37,054 bases of DNA from Candidatus Aminicenantota bacterium (lineage in GTDB: Bacteria > Acidobacteriota > Aminicenantia > Aminicenantales > UBA4085), in NCBI GenBank assembly GCA_026393895.1, contig JAPKZG010000064.1:1-37054 (forward strand), read 5' to 3'. The notes under the pieces are model-generated. The model was not told where the DNA came from and made no database searches. It saw nothing but the letters and a program-made list of their open reading frames with translations. Below, piece after piece: positions 9,633 to 21,336 of the stretch. Made by a program: the position numbers and the translations under genes. Numbering within the stretch: position 1 is the stretch's first letter; each line of letters starts with the position of its first letter.

Positions 9633-10832
9633 CTATTTCCAGGCCGACATGAGTTGTGGCAGGTCGGAAAGGTCCGCCTGGGCGATCCGGAGTTTGGACA
9701 GGTCTACGTCCCCGAGGGTTTTCAGCCCGGAGCCCGTGATGACGAGCACGGATCGGGCCCCAGGGGGAATCAGGCCCTGTTTCGTCATTTTCAAGTAGGC
9801 GGCGAGCACGGTGGCCGAAGCCGGGTCGCAGAAGATCCCTTCGTATTCGGCCAGGGCGCGCTGGGCCTTGAGAATTTCGGTTTCGCCGACGGCCGCCATC
9901 GCGCCCCGGTTTGCGGCCAACATCCGGAGGAGGACTTTTCCTCCGGGAGGTTGGGGGTTGGCGATGGCGTGGGCGACGGTCCGAGGATTCGTTACGGGAG
10001 AGATCGTTTTCTTGTGCCGGTCGAAAGCCCGGGCGATCGGAGCGCAACCCCGGGCTTGGACGCCGACGAATCGCGGCAACCTGGAGATCAGGCCGGCGCG
10101 TCTCAGGTCCAGGAAACCGCGCATGAGCCCGATGAGATGCCCGCCGGAACTGACCGGGACGAAGAGGTACTCCGGGGCTTTTCCGCCGAGCTGCTCGTAA
10201 ATTTCGTACGAAGTGACTTTGTATCCTTCGATCCGGTAGGGATCTACGGAATTGATGAAGTAGAAGCTGAGGACCCGCCCGATCTCGAAACTTTTCCAAA
10301 ACAGAGCCGCGTAATTCCCCCGCACCTTGATGACGTTCGCGCCGTGGATGCCCGCGGCCAGGATTTTTTCCCGGGGAGTGTCGTCCTTGACGAAGATGAC
10401 GCTCCGGAGGCCGGCTTTGGCCGCGTAGGCGGCCGTCGAGCCGGCCATGTTTCCCGTCGAAATCGTTCCCACCGTCTCAAACCCGAGGGCTTTGGCCATG
10501 TGGATCGCGATGACCGACCCGCGGTCCTTGAAACTGCCCGTGGGATTCATCGCTTCGTTTTTAGCGAAAAGCGGGGGAGTGTGAAATTTCGCCTGCAGCC
10601 GGTTGAGGACTTGAAGGGGGGTGCCGCCTTCGCCGAGCGAGAGCGACGTATCGAACTCGTCGAGGGGGAGGAAGTCGAGATAGCGGGAGACGCCCATCGG
10701 GCTCCGGCGGTGGATCGACGGAGACTTCGGGACGTAGGCCGAAAGCAGGGGGTCGCCGCAGATGGGACAGAACAAGCTCCGGACATCCGCGGGGTACGGC
10801 CGGCGACAGATCGGGCAGGAAAATGATTCCAT
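9633..10832 (-). CDS. thrC: Threonine synthase
   Basis: A 399-residue PLP fold-type-II enzyme converting O-phosphohomoserine to threonine in the cytoplasm. The N-terminus is a zinc ribbon (C6-P-I-C9 ... C22-P-I-C25), common in archaeal-type threonine synthases. GEGGTPL precedes the PLP motif NPTGSFKDRG with Schiff-base Lys102, and STGNMAGSTAAYAAKAG and SSGGHLIGLMRGF form the phosphate cup and active-site loops. I use the ATG at 10832, which has GAGG 8 nt upstream, not the GTG 9 bp earlier that would overlap the ribosome site. It is divergent from tadA with a 53-bp shared promoter region. Homoserine dehydrogenase, the other threonine-branch gene, lies ~1.1 kb away on the opposite strand. Confidence 0.93.
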   Translation of the reverse strand: MESFSCPICRRPYPADVRSLFCPICGDPLLSAYVPKSPSIHRRSPMGVSRYLDFLPLDEFDTSLSLGEGGTPLQVLNRLQAKFHTPPLFAKNEAMNPTGSFKDRGSVIAIHMAKALGFETVGTISTGNMAGSTAAYAAKAGLRSVIFVKDDTPREKILAAGIHGANVIKVRGNYAALFWKSFEIGRVLSFYFINSVDPYRIEGYKVTSYEIYEQLGGKAPEYLFVPVSSGGHLIGLMRGFLDLRRAGLISRLPRFVGVQARGCAPIARAFDRHKKTISPVTNPRTVAHAIANPQPPGGKVLLRMLAANRGAMAAVGETEILKAQRALAEYEGIFCDPASATVLAAYLKMTKQGLIPPGARSVLVITGSGLKTLGDVDLSKLRIAQADLSDLPQLMSAWK

Positions 10833-10867
10833 GATCCGCACCTCTTACGGACGCTGAGAGAATACCT

Positions 10868-10873
10868 TATAAT
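10868..10873 (+). promoter_or_regulatory. -10 element of tadA
   Basis: A perfect TATAAT lies 12 nt before the tadA ATG; the -35 is poor (TTACGG at 10845-10850, 17-bp spacer). The transcript would start about 6 nt before the ATG with no ribosome site, so tadA is probably nearly leaderless. Confidence 0.55.
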
Positions 10874-10885
10874 ATTTTCGCTTCC

Positions 10886-11365
10886 ATGAAAACCCTTCAA
10901 AATGATCCGGACCTGCCGTTGATGGCTTCGGCGATCAAGGAAGCCCGGGCGGCCGCGGCAAAAGGGGAGGTCCCGGTCGGCGCGGTGAACGTCCGCGAGG
11001 GGACGGTCGTCGCCCGCGGGGGCAACCGGCCGATCCGGAGCGGCGACCCGACGGCCCACGCCGAGATCGTCGCGATCCGGGCGGCGGCCAAAAAACTGGG
11101 AAATTACCGGTTGACCGGATGCGAAATCTACGTGACCGTCGAGCCGTGCGCGATGTGCCTGGGGGCGATTCTTCAGGCCCGGATCAGGCGATTGGTTTAC
11201 GGCGCGGCCGACCCCAAGGCCGGGGCGGTGAAATCCATCGTCCGGTTTCCGGTTCACAAGACGAACCACCGGCTCGAAATCCGCGGCGGATTGCTGGCCG
11301 AGGATTGCGCCGCCGTTCTCCGCGATTTTTTCCGGGAACGGCGTGCCGCTTCCCGCCGCCGGTAA
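10886..11365 (+). CDS. tadA: tRNA-specific adenosine deaminase TadA
   Basis: A 159-residue zinc deaminase that converts A34 to inosine in tRNA-Arg(ACG). Zinc-site residues are His58 and catalytic Glu60 in TAHAEIVAI and Cys88/Cys91 in EPCAMCLGAI. RIRRLVYGAADPKAGAV and the C-terminal LLAEDCAAVLRDFFRERR are diagnostic of TadA rather than guanine or cytosine deaminases. Length is as expected. One oddity is KSIVRFPVHKTNHRLEIRGG, where VGSLFNLL... is more usual. It is read from its own promoter, apparently without a Shine-Dalgarno site, and a miniature inverted-repeat element begins 3 bp after its stop. Confidence 0.92.
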   Translation: MKTLQNDPDLPLMASAIKEARAAAAKGEVPVGAVNVREGTVVARGGNRPIRSGDPTAHAEIVAIRAAAKKLGNYRLTGCEIYVTVEPCAMCLGAILQARIRRLVYGAADPKAGAVKSIVRFPVHKTNHRLEIRGGLLAEDCAAVLRDFFRERRAASRRR

Positions 11366-11367
11366 TT

Positions 11368-11506
11368 GGGGACAGGTCACTTAAACCCCGATTTCCCCTC
11401 ACCTTCCCCACGCCGAAAGTTAATTCCTTGGCGCTAAAACATTCCGCTTTTTTCCCCCCCCAAATATGATAGGAACAATAAATCGGGAAATGAGTGCCCT
11501 GTCCCC
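11368..11506. mobile_element. 139-bp miniature inverted-repeat element
   Basis: The ends are imperfect 27-bp terminal inverted repeats, 22 of 27 positions matching by eye. The left end begins GGGGACAGGTCACT and continues to CCCGATTT (11387-11394). The right end read in reverse begins GGGGACAGGGCACT and continues to CCCGATTT (complement of 11480-11487). The ~85-bp interior is AT-richer with no ORF. It resembles a MITE or a doublet of REP palindromes moved by a Y1/RAYT transposase. A related GGGGACA...TGTCCCC palindrome lies at 35718-35759. Confidence 0.6.
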
Positions 11507-11518
11507 GACTTCACCCTC

Positions 11519-11537
11519 CCGAATTCACCGAATTCGG
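11519..11537 (+). terminator. Hairpin with short T-run, possible tadA terminator
   Basis: CCGAATTC, loop acc, GAATTCGG, followed by cgTTTT. A perfect 8-bp stem directly upstream of the tRNA promoter. The same CCGAATTC/GAATTCGG arms occur in the palindrome at 35718-35759, so it may be part of the REP-like family instead. Confidence 0.45.
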
Positions 11538-11541
11538 CGTT

Positions 11542-11570
11542 TTGTCGTTTCCGACCGCTTCCGCTATAAT
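11542..11570 (+). promoter_or_regulatory. Sigma-70 promoter of tRNA-Ser(CGA)
   Basis: TTGTCG, 17-bp spacer, perfect TATAAT at 11565-11570; the tRNA begins 14 nt downstream. No other promoter is evident before hom, so the tRNA, the repeats and hom may share this transcript. Confidence 0.7.
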
Positions 11571-11584
11571 AAGGCTTCTCCCGC

Positions 11585-11671
11585 GGAGAGGTGACCGAGT
11601 GGTTGAAGGTGCCGCTCTCGAAAAGCGGTGTGCCCGTGAGGGTACCGCGGGTTCGAATCCCGCCCTCTCCG
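11585..11671 (+). tRNA. tRNA-Ser, anticodon CGA
   Basis: An 87-nt class II tRNA. Acceptor GGAGAGG pairs with CCTCTCC (11664-11670), with discriminator G. The anticodon stem-loop is CCGCT-CTCGAAA-AGCGG, giving anticodon CGA (reads UCG). A long variable arm (TGCCCGTGAGGGTA) and T arm GCGGG-TTCGAAT-CCCGC confirm serine type. CCA is not encoded. A structured repeat starts at the next base. Confidence 0.95.
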
Positions 11672-11777
11672 TTCCTTCAGGAGGAACGCCTACCTGCCGG
11701 CCTCCCCGAGTCCTAGGGGAGGTAGGAGAGGTAGAGAATTTAATACGAAGTCTTGAAGGTGTTCCGATCTTAAGATA
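11672..11777 (+). repeat. Structured repeat, copy 1 (after tRNA-Ser CGA)
   Basis: First of two tandem 106-bp units. Pairings: local hairpin TTCCT-tcagg-AGGAA (11672-11686); outer stem GGAACGCCT (11683-11691) with AGGTGTTCC (11757-11765); inner stems CTACC/GGTAG and CCTCCCC/GGGGAGG around gagtccta. The AGGAA strand is shared by the local hairpin and the outer stem, so the two are mutually exclusive. Covariation with the other copies supports an RNA structure. Confidence 0.8.
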
Positions 11778-11883
11778 TTCCTTCAGGAGGAACGCCTACC
11801 TGCCGTCCTCCCCGAGTCCTAGGGGAGGCAGGAGAGGTAGAGAATTTAATACGGAGTCTTGAAGGTGTTCCGGTCCTTAGAAA
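11778..11883 (+). repeat. Structured repeat, copy 2
   Basis: Nearly identical to copy 1 at an exact 106-bp period. GGGGAGGcagg replaces GGGGAGGtagg, allowing one more pair with the 5' CCTGCC. Outer stem 11789-11797 / 11863-11871 is intact. Confidence 0.8.
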
Positions 11884-11905
11884 TGCCTTCAGGAGGGACG
11901 CTTTT
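11884..11905 (+). repeat. Partial third repeat unit
   Basis: GCCTTCAGGAGGGACGC repeats the head of the unit in the same 106-bp register, then diverges. The true ribosome site of hom (GAGGAG, 11915-11920) follows. Confidence 0.6.
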
Positions 11906-11926
11906 CTGCGCCTCGAGGAGAACGCC

Positions 11927-12949
11927 ATGGTTATTCCTCTCATTCTGACCGGGTTCGGCAACGTCGGAAAGGCGTTTGTCCGGCTCCTGGCCGAAAAACA
12001 CGAGGATTGCCGGTCCCGCTACGGGCTGGATTTCGACCTCGTAGCCGTCGTCCGAAAGACCGGCGCTTGGATGGCGAACAAGGAGGGCGAATTTTTCAAC
12101 TTGGCCGCTCCGGCCGCGGAGCCGCTGGAGTCCAGGCCGGGATGGTTTCCCGGAATGTCTTTATCCGAAGTCCTGGTCCGTGCCCGGAGACGTGGGGCGC
12201 TCGTCGAATGCACGTCCTCGAATTGGCAGACGGGCGAGCCCCAACTCGAATTTCTTCACGCGGCCCTCAACCTCGGCTGGCACGTCGCCGCGGCGAGCAA
12301 GGGCGGGCTGATCGTTGATTTTAAAAATCTTCAGGCCAAGGCCCGGTCGAAAAAATTGTCCCTCAAGTTCAGCGGCGCGACGGCCGCCGCCCTTCCGACC
12401 CTCGATGTCGCGACCGTCTCCCTGGCCGGGGCGAAGATCCTCGGCTTCGAGGGGATTTTGACCGGGACGACCAATTATATTCTGAGCCGGCTGGAACAGG
12501 GGCTCTCCTTCGAGGCCGCGCTCAAGGAAGCCCAGGCCAAGGGGATCGCCGAGATGGATCCGTCGATGGATATCGACGGGTGGGACACGGCCTGCAAGGT
12601 CATCCTGATCGCCAATGCCGCGGCCGGCACGGACTTCACGATCAACGATGTCAACGTGGAAGGGATCCGTGTAGTCACGAGCGGGGCTTTAGCCGACGCC
12701 CGGGCCTCGGGGAATTCCCTCAAGCTCCTCGGTCGCCTCTTCGAAGAGGGGGGACGCTACCGGGCGGAAGTCAAAGTCATGCCCGTTCCCCCCTCTCATC
12801 CGCTTTTCCGGTTGACCGGAACGAGCAAGGGGATCGTCTTCCGGACCGATACGATGGGAACGGTCGCCGTCACGGACGGGAAATCCGACCCGCGCGGCAC
12901 CGCCGCCGCGGTCTTGAAGGACGTCATCAACATCTTCCGCGACCGCTGA
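11927..12949 (+). CDS. hom: Homoserine dehydrogenase (no ACT domain)
   Basis: A 340-residue NAD(P)-dependent enzyme reducing aspartate semialdehyde to homoserine, feeding threonine and methionine synthesis. The Rossmann motif LTGFGNVGKAFVRLL is at residues 7-21. Catalytic-domain signatures are AAASKGGL, FSGATAAALPTLD, GILTGTTNYILSRLEQG and MDPSMDIDGWDTACKVILIAN, which carries the conserved Asp/Lys pair. It ends after the catalytic domain, so it lacks the C-terminal ACT domain of allosteric bacterial forms. A separate ACT-domain protein is encoded convergently 34 bp downstream, which makes that protein a candidate for supplying regulation. The start has GAGGAG 6 nt upstream. It lies downstream of tRNA-Ser and two structured repeats, with no intervening promoter visible. 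Confidence 0.93.
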   Translation: MVIPLILTGFGNVGKAFVRLLAEKHEDCRSRYGLDFDLVAVVRKTGAWMANKEGEFFNLAAPAAEPLESRPGWFPGMSLSEVLVRARRRGALVECTSSNWQTGEPQLEFLHAALNLGWHVAAASKGGLIVDFKNLQAKARSKKLSLKFSGATAAALPTLDVATVSLAGAKILGFEGILTGTTNYILSRLEQGLSFEAALKEAQAKGIAEMDPSMDIDGWDTACKVILIANAAAGTDFTINDVNVEGIRVVTSGALADARASGNSLKLLGRLFEEGGRYRAEVKVMPVPPSHPLFRLTGTSKGIVFRTDTMGTVAVTDGKSDPRGTAAAVLKDVINIFRDR

Positions 12950-12983
12950 TTTTCCTCTCGCGGAGTCGCGACCGCCGAAGGCC

Positions 12984-13643
12984 TCAGCGCGTTTCGAACA
13001 ACCGCTTTATCAAGGTGAAGGCGGCGTCGATATTCCTGTCCGCCAGAATGATCGTGAATTCGTTGCTGGTGGAAACCACTTCGATCACCGGGATTCCGTC
13101 CCAGGCCAACGCTTTCAGGATATAGCTGTAAATTCCGGGGATGGTTGCCGAACCGGGAGGCAGGAGCACGCTTATGGAGGACAGATTGTCGAGCAGGGCG
13201 ATCCGCGCGGCTTCCTTGAAGGCCTTCAGGATGCGGTCGCGGAGTTCCCGGCCGGCGATGATCGTGGTTTCGTTGATGCCCTGGGTGATCGTCAGAAAGG
13301 GCGCCGTCCGTCCGCCCGTTTTTTCGAGCAGGAGTTTGGGGCGGTCGGCCTTTCGCGGAACGTTGGCATAGGTGACTTCGAAGAGGTTCGACCGGACCAT
13401 GAGGTCCGGCGCGGTTTTAAAAAAACGTTTCAGCGGTTTGGCCCGGGCGGCCCGCTTCCGGGCCAGCCGGTTGAGGGCGATCGTGATCGCTCCGTCCTTG
13501 ATTTTTTTCTGAACCTCCTCCTCGACCTCGGCCCGCAGCGACCGGGCGACCGCGGAGAGGTTGAGCCAGCCGCGGGCCATGGCTTCTTCAAGGAAGGGGG
13601 ACTTCCGGACAAGCTTGTCGACGGTTTCAGGAATCGTGATCAT
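12984..13643 (-). CDS. ACT-domain protein with helical (HTH-like) N-terminus, probable amino-acid-responsive regulator
   Basis: A 219-residue protein. The C-terminus (~residues 150-217) looks like an aspartokinase-type ACT domain: ISVLLPPGSATIPGIYSYIL, then LAWDGIPVIEVVSTSNEFTIILADRNIDAAFTLIKRLFE in consecutive segments. The N-terminal ~60 residues (FLEEAMARGWLNLSAVARSL ... IKDGAITIALNRLARK) are helical, with a layout suggesting a winged or HTH DNA-binding unit. ACT domains bind amino acids, so lysine, threonine or arginine is the likely ligand. The gene has no ribosome site. A strong promoter places transcription start at the ATG, and an 18-bp palindrome overlaps both, consistent with autorepression. 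It lies between hom and the LysW operon and is divergent from the latter. DNA binding is inferred, not shown. Confidence 0.7.
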   Translation of the reverse strand: MITIPETVDKLVRKSPFLEEAMARGWLNLSAVARSLRAEVEEEVQKKIKDGAITIALNRLARKRAARAKPLKRFFKTAPDLMVRSNLFEVTYANVPRKADRPKLLLEKTGGRTAPFLTITQGINETTIIAGRELRDRILKAFKEAARIALLDNLSSISVLLPPGSATIPGIYSYILKALAWDGIPVIEVVSTSNEFTIILADRNIDAAFTLIKRLFETR

Positions 13644-13689: not shown

Positions 13690-13768
13690 AATTTGACATC
13701 TCCAAACGGTTCCTTCGAAAATGGGCCCGAACCCGACGGTTCAGATTTATTCGTTCATGGAGGACCCG

Positions 13769-13969
13769 ATGTTGCTGCAAACAGTCCAAGCCGCCGCTTA
13801 CGGGGAATGTCCCGTCTGCGCGGCTCTGCTGTCCCGGCCCTCGTCGATCGAGGAGACCGAAATCCTGACCTGCGACGAATGCCGCTCCCCCCTGGTCGTC
13901 GACCGGCGCGTCGGCGTGAAATTGATTCTCGGCGAAGCGCCGAGAATCGAGGAGGATTGGGGGGAGTGA
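13769..13969 (+). CDS. lysW: LysW, amino-group carrier protein
   Basis: A 66-residue acidic carrier protein. The zinc-ribbon cysteines are C14-P-V-C17 and C35-D-E-C38, and it ends with the diagnostic EEDWGE. In the family the gamma-carboxyl of the C-terminal Glu (here Glu66) is joined to the alpha-amino group of 2-aminoadipate or glutamate. The carrier then shuttles the intermediate between LysX, LysZ, LysY and LysJ by charge contacts. I chose the ATG at 13769, preceded by GGAGG 5 nt upstream; an ATG 12 bp earlier lies inside the ribosome site. The C-terminal codons overlap the lysX start and contain an 11-bp perfect hairpin. It is slightly longer at the N-terminus than the typical ~54-residue LysW. 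Confidence 0.93.
   Translation: MLLQTVQAAAYGECPVCAALLSRPSSIEETEILTCDECRSPLVVDRRVGVKLILGEAPRIEEDWGE
13924..13948 (+). promoter_or_regulatory. Perfect 11-bp hairpin before the lysX ribosome site
   Basis: GATTCTCGGCG, loop aag, CGCCGAGAATC, followed at once by AGGAGG (13950-13955), the ribosome site of lysX (GTG at 13966). It sits in the lysW 3' coding end. It could protect a processed lysW mRNA or damp lysX translation so that carrier exceeds enzyme. Confidence 0.55.
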
Positions 13970-14826
13970 TACGTCTGGCCGTGCTCCATTCGACGATCCG
14001 GGCGGAAGAGAAACTTCTCGGAGAAGCCGCCCGGAACCGGAACGTCGAGGTGCTGTGGGTGGATATCCGTTCGGAGATTCTTGACCCGCGGCCTCCGCGT
14101 CCGGCGGCGGATGTCGCCCTCGAACGGTCGATCTCGACCGTCAAGGGCGATTACGCCGCGTCGTTTTGGGAGGCGTCCGGAATTCCCGTGATCAACCCGC
14201 CGGCGGTGGCCGCGCTGTGCCGGGACAAGTTTCTGACGTCCCTCGCTTTGGAAAAGGCCGGCGTTCCCGGGCCCCGTTTCGCCCTGGTCTTCGACCTCGA
14301 GCAGGCCCGGGCCTTGATCGATCGCTGGGGCGGATTCCCGGTCGTGTTGAAACCGGCCCAGGGGTCCTGGGGGCGTTTGCTGGCTAAGGTCAACGACGAT
14401 GACGCGCTCGCCGCGATCCTGGAGCACAAGGACGTCCTGGGAACGCCGCCGCAGAAAGCGTTTTATTTCCAGGAATTCGTCCGCAAACCCGGCCGGGACA
14501 TCCGCGCCTTTGTCGTGGACGGCCGGACGATTGCGGCCATCTACCGGGAATCGGAGCATTGGATCACCAATACGGCGCGCGGCGGCCGGGCGGTGAATTG
14601 CCCGGTCACCCCCGAATTGGAGGATGTGTGCCGGCGGGCTTCGGCGGCGATCGGCGGCGGCGTTTTGGCAGTCGATGTTTTCGAAACGCCCGACGGCTTT
14701 CAAATCAACGAAGTGAATCATACGATGGAGTTCCGGAATTCCGAAGCGCCGACGGGCGTGAGCATTTCCGGGGCCGTCGTGGATTACGCCCTCCGGGTCG
14801 CCCGGGAAAAAGGACCGGAACGATGA
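13966..14826 (+). CDS. lysX: LysX-type LysW ligase (2-aminoadipate/glutamate-LysW ligase)
   Basis: A 286-residue ATP-grasp enzyme that activates the LysW C-terminal glutamate with ATP and joins it to the amino group of 2-aminoadipate (lysine route) or glutamate (arginine route). Seen are FPVVLKPAQGSWGRLLAKV (ATP-grasp lysine and glycine loop), FYFQEFVRKPGRDIRAFVVD, and the metal-binding EVN of INEVNHTMEFRN at ~residues 249-251. It starts with GTG overlapping the lysW stop (GTGA). Length is normal. Substrate preference cannot be settled from sequence by eye; the homocitrate synthase gene two positions downstream favours lysine. Confidence 0.92.
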   Translation: MIRLAVLHSTIRAEEKLLGEAARNRNVEVLWVDIRSEILDPRPPRPAADVALERSISTVKGDYAASFWEASGIPVINPPAVAALCRDKFLTSLALEKAGVPGPRFALVFDLEQARALIDRWGGFPVVLKPAQGSWGRLLAKVNDDDALAAILEHKDVLGTPPQKAFYFQEFVRKPGRDIRAFVVDGRTIAAIYRESEHWITNTARGGRAVNCPVTPELEDVCRRASAAIGGGVLAVDVFETPDGFQINEVNHTMEFRNSEAPTGVSISGAVVDYALRVAREKGPER

Positions 14827-15881
14827 GCCCGGATCGGTTGAAAGTCGCGGTCATCGGGGCCGCGGGATACGGCGGCGGCGAGCTCCTGCGCCTGCTTCTC
14901 GCCCATCCCGGGGCGGACGTCCGCCAGGCCGCCAGCCGCAGGTTCGCCGGCGAGCCGGTCGCCTTAGTCCACCCGAATCTCCGGAGTTTGCGGCCGCTCG
15001 TTTTTTGCCGGCCCGAGGAAATTTCGCCCTGCGACGTCCTGTTTCTGAGCCTCCCCAACGGCGAGTCGATGAAATCCATGGACCGGTGGCTGAAAACGGG
15101 AACGAAGGTCGTCGACCTGGGAGCGGATTTCCGCTTGCGCCGAGCGGAGGATTGGAAACAATGGTATGAATCCGATCATCAGTGTCCCGACCTCCTGGAC
15201 CGGTTCGTTTACGGCATCCCCGAAATCAACCGCGCGGCGATCCGGTCCGCTTCCTGCGTCGCCGGCCCGGGATGCGAAGCGATCGCCTCGATCCTCGGTC
15301 TCCGCCCCTTGGTCCGCCACGGTCTCGTCCGCGGCGGCGCGGTCGTCATCGACGCCAAAATGGGAAGCTCCGCGGCCGGCGCCCGGCCGTCGGATTCCAC
15401 CCATCATCCGGAACGGGCCGGAGCCGTCCGGTCTTATCGACCGACCGGACACCGGCACACGGTTGAAATCAGCCGGATCTTGGAGGCGGAGGGCGCAAAC
15501 TTTTCCCTCTATGTAACGGCGACGGCGATCGATATGGTCCGCGGAATTCTAGTCACGATCCATGTGTTTCCCGACGCCGGGGCCGTCACCGAAAAGGACG
15601 TCTGGAAGGCCTACCGGGCGGAATATGGGGACTCGCCGTTTGTCCGGATCGTCAAAGAGAACCGCGGTTTGTACCGGTTCCCCGAGCCGAAAATTCTCCA
15701 GGGGACGAATTTTTGCGAAATCGGCTTTGAACTCGAAAATGGCGGACGGCGCCTGGTCGTCATGTCCGCTCTCGATAATCTCGTTAAGGGAGCGGCGGGA
15801 AACGCCGTTCAATGTTTCAACCTCATGGCCGGCTTTCCCGAGACGACGGGTCTCGAATTCCCCGGCCTCCATCCGGTGTGA
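14823..15881 (+). CDS. lysY: LysY/ArgC: LysW-aminoadipyl/glutamyl phosphate reductase
   Basis: A 352-residue NADPH-dependent reductase of the ArgC family, converting the LysW-bound acyl phosphate to a semialdehyde. Rossmann motif VIGAAGYGGGELLRLLLAHP is at ~residues 9-28; SLPNGESM and DLGADFRLR are family motifs. The catalytic Cys151 lies in GPGCEA (the usual form is NPGCY), and the catalytic His in PTGHRHTVEIS. The C-terminal VMSALDNLVKGAAGNAVQCF is diagnostic. It starts at an ATG overlapping the lysX stop (ATGA). The altered residues around the active cysteine (A-G-P-G-C-E) fit LysW-dependent forms. Confidence 0.9.
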   Translation: MSPDRLKVAVIGAAGYGGGELLRLLLAHPGADVRQAASRRFAGEPVALVHPNLRSLRPLVFCRPEEISPCDVLFLSLPNGESMKSMDRWLKTGTKVVDLGADFRLRRAEDWKQWYESDHQCPDLLDRFVYGIPEINRAAIRSASCVAGPGCEAIASILGLRPLVRHGLVRGGAVVIDAKMGSSAAGARPSDSTHHPERAGAVRSYRPTGHRHTVEISRILEAEGANFSLYVTATAIDMVRGILVTIHVFPDAGAVTEKDVWKAYRAEYGDSPFVRIVKENRGLYRFPEPKILQGTNFCEIGFELENGGRRLVVMSALDNLVKGAAGNAVQCFNLMAGFPETTGLEFPGLHPV

Positions 15882-15883
15882 TC

Positions 15884-16927
15884 ATGATCAATCATTCGTC
15901 CGTTCTGGCGCATTTCAAGGGCGTGGTCGATTCCACGCTCCGGGAAGGCTTTCAATTCGCCGGAGCGAATTTCAGTCTGGAGGACCAGCGGGAGATTTTC
16001 GACCGTCTGGTCCTCCTGGGCGTGGAAATCGTCGAGGTGGGCAATCCCGTCCAGCCCGAAATCCGGGAACGGATCGCCGCCCTCCGGCGGAGACGGGGGG
16101 ACGGCGACCGGCCGCGGTTGTTCGCCCACATCCGGAATCATGAGCGGGACATCCGGGCGGCGGCTGAATGCGCGGTGGATGGCGTGAGCGTCCTCTGCAC
16201 CGCGGACGTCGAGAGATTGGCCGCGATGGGGCTGACCCCGGATTCTTCGCGCGAGCGGCTCCGTCAAAACATCGCCCTGGCCCTGTCGTTCGGACTGGAT
16301 GTCCGCGTCGGCGTCGAGGATTTCTTCGGCCGTTCGTTCCGGGACTGCCTGGACATCTACGAGCAGGCCGAATCGGCCGGGGCGACGCGCGTGGCCCTAG
16401 CCGACACCTTGGGAAAAGCCCAGGGTTGGGAGGTCGCCCGGCGCGTCGGAGCACTCCGGCGGAGGACGCGTCTCGAGATCGAAGGACACTTTCACAATGA
16501 CCTCGGACAGGCCGTGAGCAACGCGGTCATCGCCGTCCGCGCCGGGGCCAACTGGATCAGCGCTTCGCTCCTCGGCATCGGCGAGCGCACCGGGATCACG
16601 CCCTTGTCGTCGTTCCTGGCCAATCTTTACGTTCTGGATCCGGACGTGGCCCGGCGGTACCGGATGGAGGAACTCACCGCCGCCGAAGGGTTGGTTTCGC
16701 ACCTGTGCGGGATCGACGTCCCGCTTCATTTGATCACCAGCCCGGCCAACGGATTCGCCCACAAGGCCGGAATTCATCTGGACGCGTTGATGAAATTCGG
16801 TCCGGGAAAATATGAGCCTCTGTCCCCGCGGATCGTCGGAAACGTCCGCCGGCTGGTCCTTCACTCGGTGATTTCGGGAAAAACGAGTGATGTCCAGGCG
16901 CGGGAATTCGAACAGAGATTCGGATGA
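15884..16927 (+). CDS. Homocitrate synthase-like enzyme (LeuA/HCS family)
   Basis: A 347-residue HMGL-like TIM-barrel enzyme predicted to condense 2-oxoglutarate and acetyl-CoA to homocitrate, the first step of aminoadipate lysine synthesis. Seen are VVDSTLREGFQFAGANF (catalytic Arg20-Glu21 and Gln24), HIRNHERD (the His that reads the distal carboxylate), metal-ligand GHFHND, LLGIGERTGITPLSSFLANL and NGFAHKAGIH. Compared with Thermus homocitrate synthase from memory, the REGEQ motif is REGFQ, an active-site serine after the second Arg appears to be glycine (VRVGVED), and the last ~35 residues are missing. Start: ATG at 15884; a GTG 6 bp upstream overlapping the lysY stop is equally possible. 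A citramalate- or isopropylmalate-type activity is the alternative. Confidence 0.8.
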   Translation: MINHSSVLAHFKGVVDSTLREGFQFAGANFSLEDQREIFDRLVLLGVEIVEVGNPVQPEIRERIAALRRRRGDGDRPRLFAHIRNHERDIRAAAECAVDGVSVLCTADVERLAAMGLTPDSSRERLRQNIALALSFGLDVRVGVEDFFGRSFRDCLDIYEQAESAGATRVALADTLGKAQGWEVARRVGALRRRTRLEIEGHFHNDLGQAVSNAVIAVRAGANWISASLLGIGERTGITPLSSFLANLYVLDPDVARRYRMEELTAAEGLVSHLCGIDVPLHLITSPANGFAHKAGIHLDALMKFGPGKYEPLSPRIVGNVRRLVLHSVISGKTSDVQAREFEQRFG

Positions 16928-16962: not shown

Positions 16963-17892
16963 ATGTTGGTCGTGAAAGCCGGCGGGGGCCGGAGCATCAA
17001 TTGGGACGGGCTGGCCGTCGACCTGGCCGAGGAACAAACGCGGTCCAAGATTGTTTTGATCCACGGCGGGAACGCCGCCCGAAACGACTTGGCGGCCCGT
17101 TTGAACGTGCCCGTCCGGAGGGTGATTTCTCCTTCCGGCATCTCGAGCGTCTATACGGACAAGGACGCCCTGGATGTTTTTCTGATGGCCTATCCCGGAC
17201 TGACTTCGACCGGGATCGTCGCCCGGCTCCGCCGACACGGTCTCAACGCGGTCGGGTTGAGCGGCGTCGATGGAGGGCTCTGGCGGGCGACGGCCAAACG
17301 GGAAATTCCGGTCCGCGACGGCGACAAAATCAAGCTCCTTCGCGGAAACCTGACCGGCCGGGTCGACGCCGTCGACGGTCGTTTTCTCGAAGTCCTGCTT
17401 GAGGCCGGATATCTTCCGGTTCTCTGCGCCCCGGCCCTCGACGAGGAGGGCAACATCGTCAACGTCGACAACGACCTGGCCGCGGCGGCCACGGCGATTG
17501 CCCTTCGCGCCGGGACGATGGTTTTTCTCTTCGAAGCCGCCGGCTTCCTGGCGGACCCGAACGACCCCGAAAGCCGGGTCGCCGAAATCCAGGCCGCCGA
17601 AATCGGCGCCTCCTTGTCCGGGGCGGCCGGCGGGATGGGGAAAAAGTTGATCGCCGTTTCGCGCGCGTTGGCCGGAGGCGTTCAAACCGTTTATTTCGGC
17701 GACGGCCGGGTCGAGCATCCGCTTCGGGACGCCCTGGCGGGGCGCGGAACGGTTTTAAAATCCCCTCCGCGGGATAACACGGACGTTCGTTTGCGGAGGG
17801 ATCACGAATCCCCGCTTCGGGGACGGGCGATCCAAAGACCACAGCCGGCAGATCTCACGGATGGAAGTCCGCAGAGCTTCCGAATGGAGTAA
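16963..17892 (+). CDS. lysZ: LysZ: LysW-aminoadipate/glutamate kinase
   Basis: A 309-residue amino-acid kinase of the ArgB/LysZ group that phosphorylates the side-chain carboxyl of the LysW-bound intermediate. The N-terminus MLVVKAGGGRSINWDGL, the IVLIHGGNAARNDLAARL loop, SPSGISSVYTDKDALDVFLMA and the nucleotide loop SGAAGGMGKKL are visible. The family usually ends near ALAGRGTVI, which falls here at ~residue 266. The last ~43 residues are low-similarity, Arg/Pro-rich, and encoded over a series of hairpins; a one-base deletion at GGTTTTAAAA would end the protein there. The ribosome site is GAGG 6 nt upstream. It is 35 bp after the homocitrate synthase gene and 5 bp before lysJ. Confidence 0.9.
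   Translation: MLVVKAGGGRSINWDGLAVDLAEEQTRSKIVLIHGGNAARNDLAARLNVPVRRVISPSGISSVYTDKDALDVFLMAYPGLTSTGIVARLRRHGLNAVGLSGVDGGLWRATAKREIPVRDGDKIKLLRGNLTGRVDAVDGRFLEVLLEAGYLPVLCAPALDEEGNIVNVDNDLAAAATAIALRAGTMVFLFEAAGFLADPNDPESRVAEIQAAEIGASLSGAAGGMGKKLIAVSRALAGGVQTVYFGDGRVEHPLRDALAGRGTVLKSPPRDNTDVRLRRDHESPLRGRAIQRPQPADLTDGSPQSFRME
17763..17823 (+). other. Hairpin cluster over the lysZ 3' extension
   Basis: CCCTCCGC (17763-17770) pairs with GCGGAGGG (17793-17800), and TCCCCG-ctt-CGGGGA forms a tight second hairpin (17809-17823). They lie between the conserved end of LysZ and the lysJ start, and may be an intercistronic regulatory or processing region. Confidence 0.45.
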
Positions 17893-17897
17893 TCCCG

Positions 17898-19109
17898 ATG
17901 ATCGATGTTCAAAGACTCGAAGCCCTGCGTCTCCTGAACGTCTATCCCCGCCGGGGCCTGGTGATCCGGCGGGGCGAGGGTGTTTTTCTGGAGGATGACC
18001 GCGGCGAACGTTACCTGGACATGATGTCCAATTACGGCGTCTCGATTCTCGGTCACAATCATCCGGCGGTAACCGCGGCTCTGTCCGAACAATTGCGCAC
18101 TCTGCCGAGTCTCCACGGAGGATTCACCTGCGATGTCCGGGCCGAAGCCGCTTCCGCTCTCGCGGCCCGGTGCGGCGGGGGGTTGACGAAAGTTTTTTTC
18201 GCGAATTCCGGCGCGGAGGCCAATGAAGCCGCCCTTAAATTCGCGGTTCTGGCGACCGGGCGGAAAAAATTCGTCGCTTTCCGGAACGGATTCCACGGGA
18301 AAACACTCGGAGCGCTTTCGGCCACCGACGGGGCGGCTTATCGCGCGCCGTTTGAACCGTTGTTGTGGGACTTTGTCTTCATCGAATACGGAAATCCTTT
18401 CGGATTGGCCGCAATCGACGATCAAACGGCGGGCGTGATCATCGAGCCCATTCAAGGCGAAAGCGGCGTTCGAGTCCCGCCGCCTTTATTTCTAGCTGAA
18501 GTCGGGAAGGCCTGTTCCGCGGCCGGGGCGGTCCTGATCGTGGACGAAATCCAGACGGGAATCGGCCGGACCGGCCGTTTTTTGGCGTCTTCCGATGAGA
18601 TTCCCGCTTTCGATATCGTGACCTTGGGGAAGGGACTGGCGGGGGGGATTCCGGCGGGCGCGGTTTTGATGTCGGAAAAAATCGCTCGGGCGATTCCGCG
18701 AAAAATTCACACGTCGACGTTCGGCGGAAACCCGCTGGCCGCGGCCGGAATCCTGGCCGTGCTTTCCGTCGTGTCCGAGGAAATGTTGTCCCATGTCGAG
18801 CGTCTGGGCCGGATTTTTCTCGAGCGGCTTCGAAATATCGATGCGGACGCGATTTTGGAAGTCCGGGGGAAAGGGATGATGATCGGCGTCGAGGTCGGGG
18901 CGGACGGGGACGAGATTCTTCGCCGTCTTCAGAAGGAGCGTGTCCTGGCGATTCCGGCCGGGCCGGGCGTTGTCCGTTTTCTGCCGCCTTATATCATCGA
19001 TGAAAACCATCTGGAAATCGCTCTTTCGGCCTTCCGGGCCGCCTTATCGGAACGCGGGTTGAGGCCGACCGCGTCGATTCCGGTGAATGGGCCATGTGCC
19101 GCTTCCTGA
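17898..19109 (+). CDS. lysJ: LysJ/ArgD-type aminotransferase (LysW-semialdehyde transaminase)
   Basis: A 403-residue class III PLP aminotransferase that converts LysW-aminoadipate semialdehyde (or glutamate semialdehyde) to the LysW-lysine (or ornithine) form. Seen are GHNHPAV, FFANSGAEANEAALKFA (PLP phosphate loop), FRNGFHGKTLGALSAT, VIIEPIQGESGV, IVDEIQTGIGRTGRF and the Schiff-base Lys245 in TLGKGLAGGIPAGAVL. Placement next to lysZ and lysW identifies it as LysJ rather than a free-acetylornithine ArgD. The ribosome site GGAG is 8 nt upstream. Its last 16 bp overlap the start of the class II amidotransferase-fold gene, so the two are coupled. Confidence 0.9.
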   Translation: MIDVQRLEALRLLNVYPRRGLVIRRGEGVFLEDDRGERYLDMMSNYGVSILGHNHPAVTAALSEQLRTLPSLHGGFTCDVRAEAASALAARCGGGLTKVFFANSGAEANEAALKFAVLATGRKKFVAFRNGFHGKTLGALSATDGAAYRAPFEPLLWDFVFIEYGNPFGLAAIDDQTAGVIIEPIQGESGVRVPPPLFLAEVGKACSAAGAVLIVDEIQTGIGRTGRFLASSDEIPAFDIVTLGKGLAGGIPAGAVLMSEKIARAIPRKIHTSTFGGNPLAAAGILAVLSVVSEEMLSHVERLGRIFLERLRNIDADAILEVRGKGMMIGVEVGADGDEILRRLQKERVLAIPAGPGVVRFLPPYIIDENHLEIALSAFRAALSERGLRPTASIPVNGPCAAS

Positions 19110-19759
19110 TGGTCGAAAGCCGGCCGGCGATCCGTCCGGCCGATCTTCTCCGGCGTTTTGCCGGAATGGCCGAACGCAGCCGGTCGGAGGATGGAGACCG
19201 CCAGGGCGACGGTTGGGGAATCTGTCTCCGGAACGAAAACGGCGGCTGGCGCGGATATTGGTCGCTGCGCCCCGTTTGGGAAGAGGAGGAAACGTTTACT
19301 TCATTCCCGGCGGCGCACCGCTTCGTGATTCACGCCCGAAGCGCATCCTTTCCGGGGCACAGGGGAAAACTGGAATTCAATCAACCTTATGTCGCCGACA
19401 AGCGGGCGTTTGTTTTCAACGGCCTCCTGAAAGGCGTTTCGGCCGGCCGGCCGCTCCCGGGAGAAATCGGCGCTCAAAAAATCTGGAGTCTTTTCGGAAC
19501 GCTGAATCCGGCCGGATCCTCCCGCGACCGGATGGAAGCCCTTCTGCGGAAGTTGGAAACGTCCTGCCGCGAGATCTCCGCGCTGAACCTGGGTCTGGCC
19601 TCCGCCGAAGGACTTTTCGCTTATTGTCGCTCGACGGCTTCGGGCGCTTACTATCGCCTCCAGGCCGCCGAAACGCCCGACCTGCGGATGGTCTGCTCCG
19701 AACCGTTTTTCGGATTCGATTTCCGGCCGCTGGAGACCGGCGTTATCGTCCGATTGTGA
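19094..19759 (+). CDS. Class II glutamine-amidotransferase-fold Ntn hydrolase; candidate LysW-lysine releasing enzyme
   Basis: A 221-residue protein beginning MCRFL, so Cys2 becomes the N-terminal nucleophile after Met removal, as in YafJ/EgtC-type class II amidotransferases. Further signatures: DGWGI (39-43), HARSAS with Arg82 (the arginine that holds the alpha-carboxylate of glutamine), FNQPY (95-99) and FNG (108-110, oxyanion Asn109-Gly110). No synthase domain is attached. The Asp that holds the free alpha-amino group in GlmS (motif TDTEVI) seems replaced in EIGAQKIW (124-131). The gene overlaps lysJ by 16 bp and closes the LysW operon, where lysK (M20 peptidase) is usually found. I infer that it hydrolyses the gamma-glutamyl bond of LysW-gamma-lysine. 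Alternative: an unrelated EgtC/YafJ-like gamma-glutamyl hydrolase. Confidence 0.75.
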   Translation: MCRFLMVESRPAIRPADLLRRFAGMAERSRSEDGDRQGDGWGICLRNENGGWRGYWSLRPVWEEEETFTSFPAAHRFVIHARSASFPGHRGKLEFNQPYVADKRAFVFNGLLKGVSAGRPLPGEIGAQKIWSLFGTLNPAGSSRDRMEALLRKLETSCREISALNLGLASAEGLFAYCRSTASGAYYRLQAAETPDLRMVCSEPFFGFDFRPLETGVIVRL

Positions 19760-19845: not shown

Positions 19846-19934
19846 GGAGAGGTGTCCGAGTGGCTTAAGGAGCGCGCTTGGAAAGCGCGTGTGCGCCGCA
19901 AGGTGTACCGCGGGTTCAAATCCCGCCCTCTCCG
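19846..19934 (+). tRNA. tRNA-Ser, anticodon GGA
   Basis: An 89-nt class II tRNA. Acceptor GGAGAGG/CCTCTCC (19927-19933), discriminator G. Anticodon arm CGCGC-TTGGAAA-GCGCG gives GGA (reads UCC/UCU). Variable arm TGCGCCGCAAGGTGTA; T arm GCGGG-TTCAAAT-CCCGC. CCA is not encoded. Same acceptor and T arm as the CGA tRNA, and again followed at once by the structured repeat. Confidence 0.95.
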
Positions 19935-20127: not shown

Positions 20128-21336
20128 ATGAACACCAAACAGTACATCGCCGTCGAAGACAAGTACGGCGCCCACAACTACCACCCGTTGGACGTCGTCA
20201 TCGACAAGGCCAAGGGCATCTGGGTCTGGGACGTGGACGGCCGCAAATACCTCGACTTTCTCAGCGCCTATTCGGCCGTCAACCACGGCCACAACCACCC
20301 CCGCATCATCAAAGCCCTGATCGCCCAAGCCCGCAAACTGACCCTGACCTCGCGCGCCTTCCGCAACGACCAGTGGCCGATGCTGGCCAAGGAACTCTGC
20401 CAACGGACCGGCTATGACATGGTTCTGCCGATGAACTCGGGGGCCGAAGCCGTCGAGACGGCGGTCAAAACCGCCCGGAAGTGGGGTTATCAGAAAAAGG
20501 GTATTCCCCAGGACCAGGCCGAGATCATCGTCTGTGCCAACAATTTCCACGGCCGGACGGTCACGGTCATCAGCTTTTCAACCGAGCCGCTTTACCGGAA
20601 GGATTTCGGCCCGTTCACGCCGGGATTCAAGATTATTCCCTTCGGCGACGCGGACGCCCTGGAAAAAGCGATCACCCCCAATACTGCCGCCTTCCTCGTC
20701 GAGCCGTATCAGGCCGAAGCCGGCATTCTCATCCCGGCTTCCGGGTACCTCAAGAAGGTCCGGGAGATCTGCTCGAAAAACAACATCCTGTTCATCGCGG
20801 ACGAAATTCAAACCGGGCTGGGCCGGACGGGAAAATTGTTTGCCTGGGAACATGAAAAGGCGAAGCCCGACATGATCGTCATCGGAAAATCGCTCGGCGG
20901 CGGATGCTATCCGATCTCCGCCTGTCTGGCCACGGCCGACGTGATGAACGTCTTTCGGCCCGGCGAGCACGGCTCGACGTTCGGCGGGAATCCACTGGCC
21001 TGCGCCATCGCCCGCGAATCGCTCCGGGTGATCAAGGAAGAAAATCTCGTCGCCAACGCGGCCAAGATGGGTAAGTATTTCATGGCGAAACTGCGGACCA
21101 TCAAGAGCCGGCACATCAAGGAAGTCCGGGGACGGGGCTTGCTGATCGGCGTGGAGCTTTATCCCGAAGCCGGCGGAGCCCGCCGTTACTGCGAGGCGCT
21201 GGCGGCGGCGGGACTCCTGTGTAAGGAGACCCACGACAACGTCATCCGGTTCGCCCCGCCGCTGATCATCGGGACGAAGGACCTCGACTGGGCCTTCGAA
21301 AAGATCAAGGAAGTCTTCGTCCAACTCGATAAATAA
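20128..21336 (+). CDS. rocD: Ornithine aminotransferase (ornithine-oxo-acid transaminase)
   Basis: A 402-residue class III PLP aminotransferase. The N-terminus EDKYGAHNYHPLDVVIDKAKGIWVWDVDG (in parts YGAHNYHPL and VWDVDGRKYLDFLSAYSAVN) is diagnostic of ornithine delta-aminotransferase; the Tyr/His-rich YGAHNYHPL distinguishes it from ArgD/LysJ. Other motifs: LPMNSGAEAVETAVKTAR, NNFHGRTVTVISFS, FLVEPYQAEAGILIP, FIADEIQTGLGRTGKL and Schiff-base Lys254 in VIGKSLGGG. It makes glutamate semialdehyde from ornithine and 2-oxoglutarate, linking arginine and proline metabolism. It lies behind tRNA-Ser(GGA) and two structured repeats with no separate promoter seen, and its ribosome site comes from the repeat tail. 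Confidence 0.93.
   Translation: MNTKQYIAVEDKYGAHNYHPLDVVIDKAKGIWVWDVDGRKYLDFLSAYSAVNHGHNHPRIIKALIAQARKLTLTSRAFRNDQWPMLAKELCQRTGYDMVLPMNSGAEAVETAVKTARKWGYQKKGIPQDQAEIIVCANNFHGRTVTVISFSTEPLYRKDFGPFTPGFKIIPFGDADALEKAITPNTAAFLVEPYQAEAGILIPASGYLKKVREICSKNNILFIADEIQTGLGRTGKLFAWEHEKAKPDMIVIGKSLGGGCYPISACLATADVMNVFRPGEHGSTFGGNPLACAIARESLRVIKEENLVANAAKMGKYFMAKLRTIKSRHIKEVRGRGLLIGVELYPEAGGARRYCEALAAAGLLCKETHDNVIRFAPPLIIGTKDLDWAFEKIKEVFVQLDK

Follow-up and report, generated by a model that had tools for sequence, protein, structure and literature searches.

The gene that closes the LysW operon of a Candidatus Aminicenantota bacterium, referred to here as gat, very likely encodes a cysteine hydrolase of the Ntn type that cleaves gamma-glutamyl amides at the C-terminal residue of the carrier protein LysW, with a reaction and a binding mode that we infer below. 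The protein is best read as an enzyme that would release lysine, and probably also ornithine, from the carrier and that would first deamidate LysW where this ends in Gln. In some soil and subsurface bacteria that synthesize lysine on LysW, the usual hydrolase LysK is missing, and its place appears to be taken by an unrelated glutaminase-fold enzyme from the LysW operon; in some species it also appears to convert the C-terminal Gln of LysW to Glu before the carrier is used. An earlier note, based on the 37,054-nucleotide stretch analyzed here (the window; assembly GCA_026393895.1, contig JAPKZG010000064.1; genome of 2.96 Mb, 93% complete), had proposed gat as a non-homologous replacement of LysK. 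This proposal, with gat as the putative catalyst, is supported by the mutual exclusion of gat and LysK, by the total linkage of gat to LysW clusters, and by the occurrence of Gln-ended LysW proteins in gat genomes alone.

Apart from LysK, the features of a LysW lysine cluster are present at the locus, namely a LysW ending in EDWGE, LysX, LysY, LysZ, LysJ, and homocitrate synthase (HCS) (Table 1). The NCBIfam and Pfam matches agree with the gene order lysW-lysX-lysY-HCS-lysZ-lysJ-gat given in the earlier note, and the ORF coordinates reproduce its 16 bp overlap of gat with lysJ, the gat ATG lying inside the lysJ end. Likewise, lysX (GTG start, 13966), lysY (14823), and hcs (15878) each start within the stop codon of the gene before. 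In the PDB, HCS matches the Thermus enzyme best, at E=7e-53, and IPMS at E=6e-31 or weaker. The gat ORF encodes a stand-alone protein of 221 amino acids that begins with MCRFL.

Table 1 Features of the LysW operon and codons of the putative gat active site (window coordinates)
Feature	Position	Strand	Evidence
lysW, amino-group carrier protein, C-terminus EEDWGE	13721..13969	+	NF041070 E=3e-9, TIGR01206 E=4e-5 (neither reaching its curated cut-off); C-terminal motif
Codon of LysW C-terminal Glu	13964-13966	+	
lysX, ATP-grasp ligase loading amino acid on LysW	13966..14826	+	TIGR02144 303 bits, over cut-off
lysY, ArgC-like reductase	14823..15881	+	TIGR01850 372 bits
Homocitrate synthase (HCS)	15878..16927	+	PDB matches Thermus HCS 3a9i/2ztj; TIGR02146 225 bits, below its cut-off
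lysZ, [LysW]-aminoadipate kinase	16963..17892	+	NF010659 258 bits, over cut-off
lysJ, class III aminotransferase	17898..19109	+	TIGR00707 362 bits, NF042418 335 bits (neither reaching its cut-off)
gat, class II amidotransferase-fold (Ntn) hydrolase, candidate LysW-gamma-lysine hydrolase and LysW C-terminal amidase	19094..19759	+	
Codon of nucleophile Cys2	19097..19099	+	invariant
Codon of Arg82, GlmS Arg73 equivalent (alpha-carboxylate reader)	19337..19339	+	invariant
Codons of Asn109-Gly110, oxyanion hole (GlmS Asn98-Gly99 equivalents)	19418..19423	+	invariant
Codons of Gly126 (at the GlmS Asp123 place) to Lys129	19469..19480	+	Gly in 17/17 family members

Searches of gat against Pfam and NCBIfam returned no match, in Pfam even at E=10; no Pfam M20 model matched it, and its Ntn fold is unlike that of LysK. 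A single-sequence search of the PDB gave weak matches to EgtC, and a profile of the gat family matched 3mdn (3e-7) and EgtC (4e-6). The AlphaFold (AF2) model from the single sequence was unusable (pLDDT 37), and an alignment of 17 homologs was used instead, yielding a model with a mean pLDDT of 92.4 and the four-layer Ntn fold. Foldseek ranked EgtC first (E=1e-10, TM up to 0.79), followed by the class II proteins 1te5/3mdn, GlmS (E=7e-8), and PurF. EgtC (4zfj/4zfk/4zfl), which acts in ergothioneine biosynthesis, is thus the best structural match, at an identity of ~20%. It shares with the proposed gat hydrolase a stand-alone class II amidotransferase fold and the removal of a gamma-glutamyl group; its substrate, gamma-glutamyl-hercynylcysteine sulfoxide, is however a small molecule whose glutamyl alpha-amino group is free, whereas gat has Gly126, a shortened loop, and a place in LysW operons. 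The gat proteins form a single distinct clade (SH-aLRT 99). The closest named relative is an Acidobacteriota MAG (L012), with 61% identity over gat. The copy of genome G122 (L083:9371-10123) carries an insertion of ~30 residues and, close to residue 45, a stretch that is masked.

The residues of gat suggest what kind of substrate this fold would accept. In GlmS, Arg73 reads the alpha-carboxylate of the bound Gln and Asp123 binds its free alpha-amino group. Across the 17 homologs, 25 alignment columns are invariant, among them Cys2, Arg3, Trp41, His80, Arg82, Ser83, Phe108, Asn109, Gly110, Gly126, and Tyr186, with MCR at the N-terminus of all and Lys or Arg at position 129 (Lys129 being nearly invariant). 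The retention of Cys2, Arg82, and Asn109-Gly110 and the loss of the Asp, both read from the window protein in the earlier note, therefore hold throughout the family, the GlmS Asp123 position being Gly in 17/17. As a control, we aligned 11 generic class II proteins of the same phylum, in which this position is Asp in all 11 (motif TDSE). The family also differs from this set in its oxyanion motif (FNG vs HNG or HGG), in having N[Q/M]P (I[Q]P in one) vs N[S/T/C]HP, and in a loop after the oxyanion Gly that is ~13 residues shorter. The glutaminase domain of GlmS (1xff, 3ooj) and the YafJ-like class II proteins (1te5, 3mdn) share the fold, the Cys, the Arg, and the Asn-Gly with gat but differ from it in the same Asp123-to-Gly, HNG-to-FNG, and loop changes, and gat lacks a synthase domain. 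This pattern would fit a gamma-glutamyl substrate with its alpha-amino group tied up in a peptide bond, the situation found at the LysW C-terminus. The shared fold and the retained catalytic Cys would also be expected if gat were an ordinary glutaminase or an ordinary amidotransferase subunit that feeds ammonia into the pathway; we consider such a role very improbable, since the Asp that reads the alpha-amino group is lost throughout the family, no synthase partner domain accompanies gat, the gene replaces LysK one for one, and the LysW pathway is not known to have an ammonia-consuming step.

The genomic distribution of gat ties the family to LysW. In 59 relatives and in the MAG records L013 and L014, all gat genes lie in LysW gene clusters, including members only 29-30% identical, and at all loci the neighbors are LysW genes rather than genes of ergothioneine biosynthesis. 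A profile search of 396 genomes of the phylum identified 13 genomes with strong gat matches (>170 bits), the next matches scoring ~45 bits or less. LysX is over its cut-off in 44 genomes. Twelve of the 13 strong gat genes share a contig with LysX and lie within ~6 kb of it; in the remaining genome, G006, the contig begins inside the operon. The linkage anticipated in the earlier note is therefore total wherever the contig suffices. Within the order of the window genome (94 genomes), LysX occurs in 7 genomes and gat in the same 7 plus G006 (Fisher p=8e-10), and the pairwise distances of gat and LysX correlate (r=0.81, reached in 0/5000 permutations). The LysW operon occurs sporadically within the order, and gat accompanies it. 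The clusters of L013 (titled Roizmanbacteria) and L014 (Pacebacteria) are in MAGs labeled as CPR, reflecting either horizontal transfer or a binning error.

LysK, in turn, is absent where gat is found. The window contig contains no M20 protein, in agreement with the earlier note, and neither the window genome nor any of the 94 genomes of the order has LysK over the cut-off. The best match to the LysK models in the window genome is an M20 gene of a dapA operon on another contig (C72:4521-8285, L001; dapA, a DapD-type tetrahydrodipicolinate N-acetyltransferase, the M20 deacylase, and a class I aminotransferase); as a hidden LysK it was rejected, scoring about 97-101 bits against a cut-off of 163 for TIGR01902 and 117 against 363 for the [LysW]-lysine hydrolase model, and its operon setting explains it as an acyl-DAP deacylase. 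Among the 49 genomes of the phylum examined, 30 have LysK over the cut-off, always on the LysX contig and ending a lysW-X-Y-Z-J run; gat occurs in none of these 30, and LysK reaches the cut-off in none of 18 gat genomes. The expected anticorrelation is thus complete in this sample (p=1e-9 by genome, p=7e-4 by family), in which the genomes are not independent because the division into gat and LysK genomes tracks the LysX phylogeny, with a minimum of 3 changes. Two LysX genomes (G131, G186) have neither gene; both belong to LysK clades, and their contigs break soon after lysY. As most of the sampled LysK clusters have no adjacent HCS, product and release enzyme are partly confounded, although G265, which has LysK and HCS but lacks a confident lysA, speaks against this as a full explanation. 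Compared with LysK (TIGR01902/NF003367), gat occupies the same operon slot and pathway step and would catalyze the same reaction; LysK is a zinc-dependent M20 metallopeptidase and gat an N-terminal-Cys Ntn hydrolase, and the two never occur together in the sampled genomes.

Other M20 proteins are encoded in every gat genome checked and could moonlight; in G068 and G064 they match the models for carboxypeptidase CpsA, ArgE/DapE-like proteins, and glutamate carboxypeptidase as well as generic M20 models. An isopeptide hydrolase could also clear any LysW-gamma-X adduct, so that gat might edit misloaded or dead-end adducts or regulate the pathway; given that LysK clusters do without gat and that gat clusters have no other dedicated release enzyme, we hold out little hope for this idea and assign it a very low probability.

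The C-terminus of LysW provides a finding that is new here and independent of the view of the sequence taken in the earlier note. The known C-terminal motif of LysW is EDWGE, the final Glu of which carries the amino acid (PMC10433800). This ending is present in 22/22 LysK genomes and in 10/16 gat genomes, including that of the window; the other six gat genomes encode EDWGQ, vs 0/22 LysK genomes (p=0.003). The EDWGQ genomes (G063, G068, G060, G246, G406, and G458; LysW genes L075, L077, L080, L081, L082, and L126) belong to five families and use CAG or CAA codons. The Glu/Gln state switched about five times (at least 5 changes by the gat and LysX trees, with a bootstrap range of 4-5 for the former). 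LysX activates a gamma-carboxylate, and a Gln-ended LysW therefore needs deamidation before it can be loaded. If gat hydrolyzes gamma-glutamyl amides at the LysW end, Gln and Glu become equivalent there, and the switch would be tolerated only in the presence of gat. The confinement of Gln-ended LysW to gat genomes thus points to the same substrate group as does the replacement of LysK. The same confinement would be expected if gat were solely a maturation enzyme converting LysW-Gln to LysW-Glu, with lysine released by an unlinked M20 protein such as that of the dapA operon, for which the additional M20 genes offer candidates. We regard this as improbable: in the 10 genomes already encoding EDWGE a deamidase would be needless, yet gat is kept with an intact active site; LysK exceeds its cut-off in no gat genome; and the M20 proteins of G068 and G064 match the other models listed above. 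Each of the three rival explanations is weaker than the reading of gat as the release enzyme.

Which amino acid would be released probably differs between lineages. No confident lysA match was found in 10 of the 17 gat genomes tested, including the window genome (no match at all in 8, and ~90-bit arginine-decarboxylase-like matches in 2), leaving LysW as the apparent lysine route in most gat genomes. The window genome, without lysA but with the dapA operon, could still make DAP for its cell wall, but for lysine it needs LysW. In the single-contig genome G068, the cluster includes HCS, homoaconitase, and HICDH, and the genome lacks a LysK-like M20 protein; a separate ArgB in G060, G305, and G122 leaves their LysW cluster free for lysine. 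Our first assumption of a lysine-only pathway was abandoned after ArgB/ArgH searches, in which several gat genomes had ArgH but LysZ as the only kinase. In G246 and G406, the cluster has no HCS, lysA and ArgH are present, and LysZ is the only kinase, so that gat there most likely serves LysW-ornithine. Judging from gene content, an additional ornithine role of gat in some lineages is likely; what gat clusters have in common is the C-terminus of LysW rather than the amino acid. Among the lysA/argH matches of G058, G001, G060, and G090 (L122-L125), a selenoprotein reading of in-frame TGA codons was rejected, these being natural gene ends or lying before the start.

In the most likely mechanism, Arg82 would bind the C-terminal Glu or Gln of LysW by its free alpha-carboxylate, and Gly126, in place of the Asp that binds the alpha-amino group, would make space for the peptide bond linking this residue to the carrier. 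Cys2 would then attack the gamma-amide to form a gamma-glutamyl thioester in the Asn109-Gly110 oxyanion hole, which water would resolve, regenerating LysW-Glu. The leaving group in the window organism would be lysine from LysW-gamma-lysine, the step performed elsewhere by LysK, and in lineages without HCS in the cluster it would probably be ornithine. Where the LysW end is encoded as Gln, the same chemistry, with ammonia leaving, would first deamidate LysW, which LysX would then load.

A precedent for such a dual activity exists in Dop, which both converts the C-terminal Gln of the carrier Pup into Glu by deamidation and cuts the gamma-glutamyl isopeptide bond, Pup ending in Gln or Glu depending on the species (PMC8599861, PMC7947786). 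Dop resembles the proposed gat in being carrier deamidase and gamma-glutamyl isopeptidase in one, but differs in its glutamine-synthetase fold, its ATP/phosphate-dependent mechanism, and its target, which is the lysine side chain of a protein and not a free amino acid. We lean toward LysW and gat being a convergent counterpart of Pup and Dop, in which one Ntn hydrolase would mature a carrier often encoded with an inactive Gln end and later free lysine or ornithine, making Gln and Glu interchangeable in evolution; if true, this would be a second origin of the logic of a Gln/Glu-ended carrier with a deamidase-isopeptidase known from Pup. It would also fill the last step of the carrier-protein lysine/ornithine pathway in bacteria apparently without a release enzyme, correct predictions of amino-acid auxotrophy, and give a name to a family unannotated in Pfam and NCBIfam. 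For Caldithrix abyssi, whose genome has a LysWXZYJ-Hcs locus, the lysine pathway has been suggested to involve non-orthologous displacement (PMC5317091), for which the gat family is a concrete candidate. No link between LysW and an amidotransferase was found in the open-access literature searched.

Immediately upstream of the LysW operon lie threonine synthase and homoserine dehydrogenase (window 9633-13643), so that the region groups genes of the aspartate family of amino acids. Downstream, an ornithine aminotransferase (TIGR01885, 568 bits; 20128-21336) begins ~370 bp after gat, with a tRNA (19846-19934) in between.
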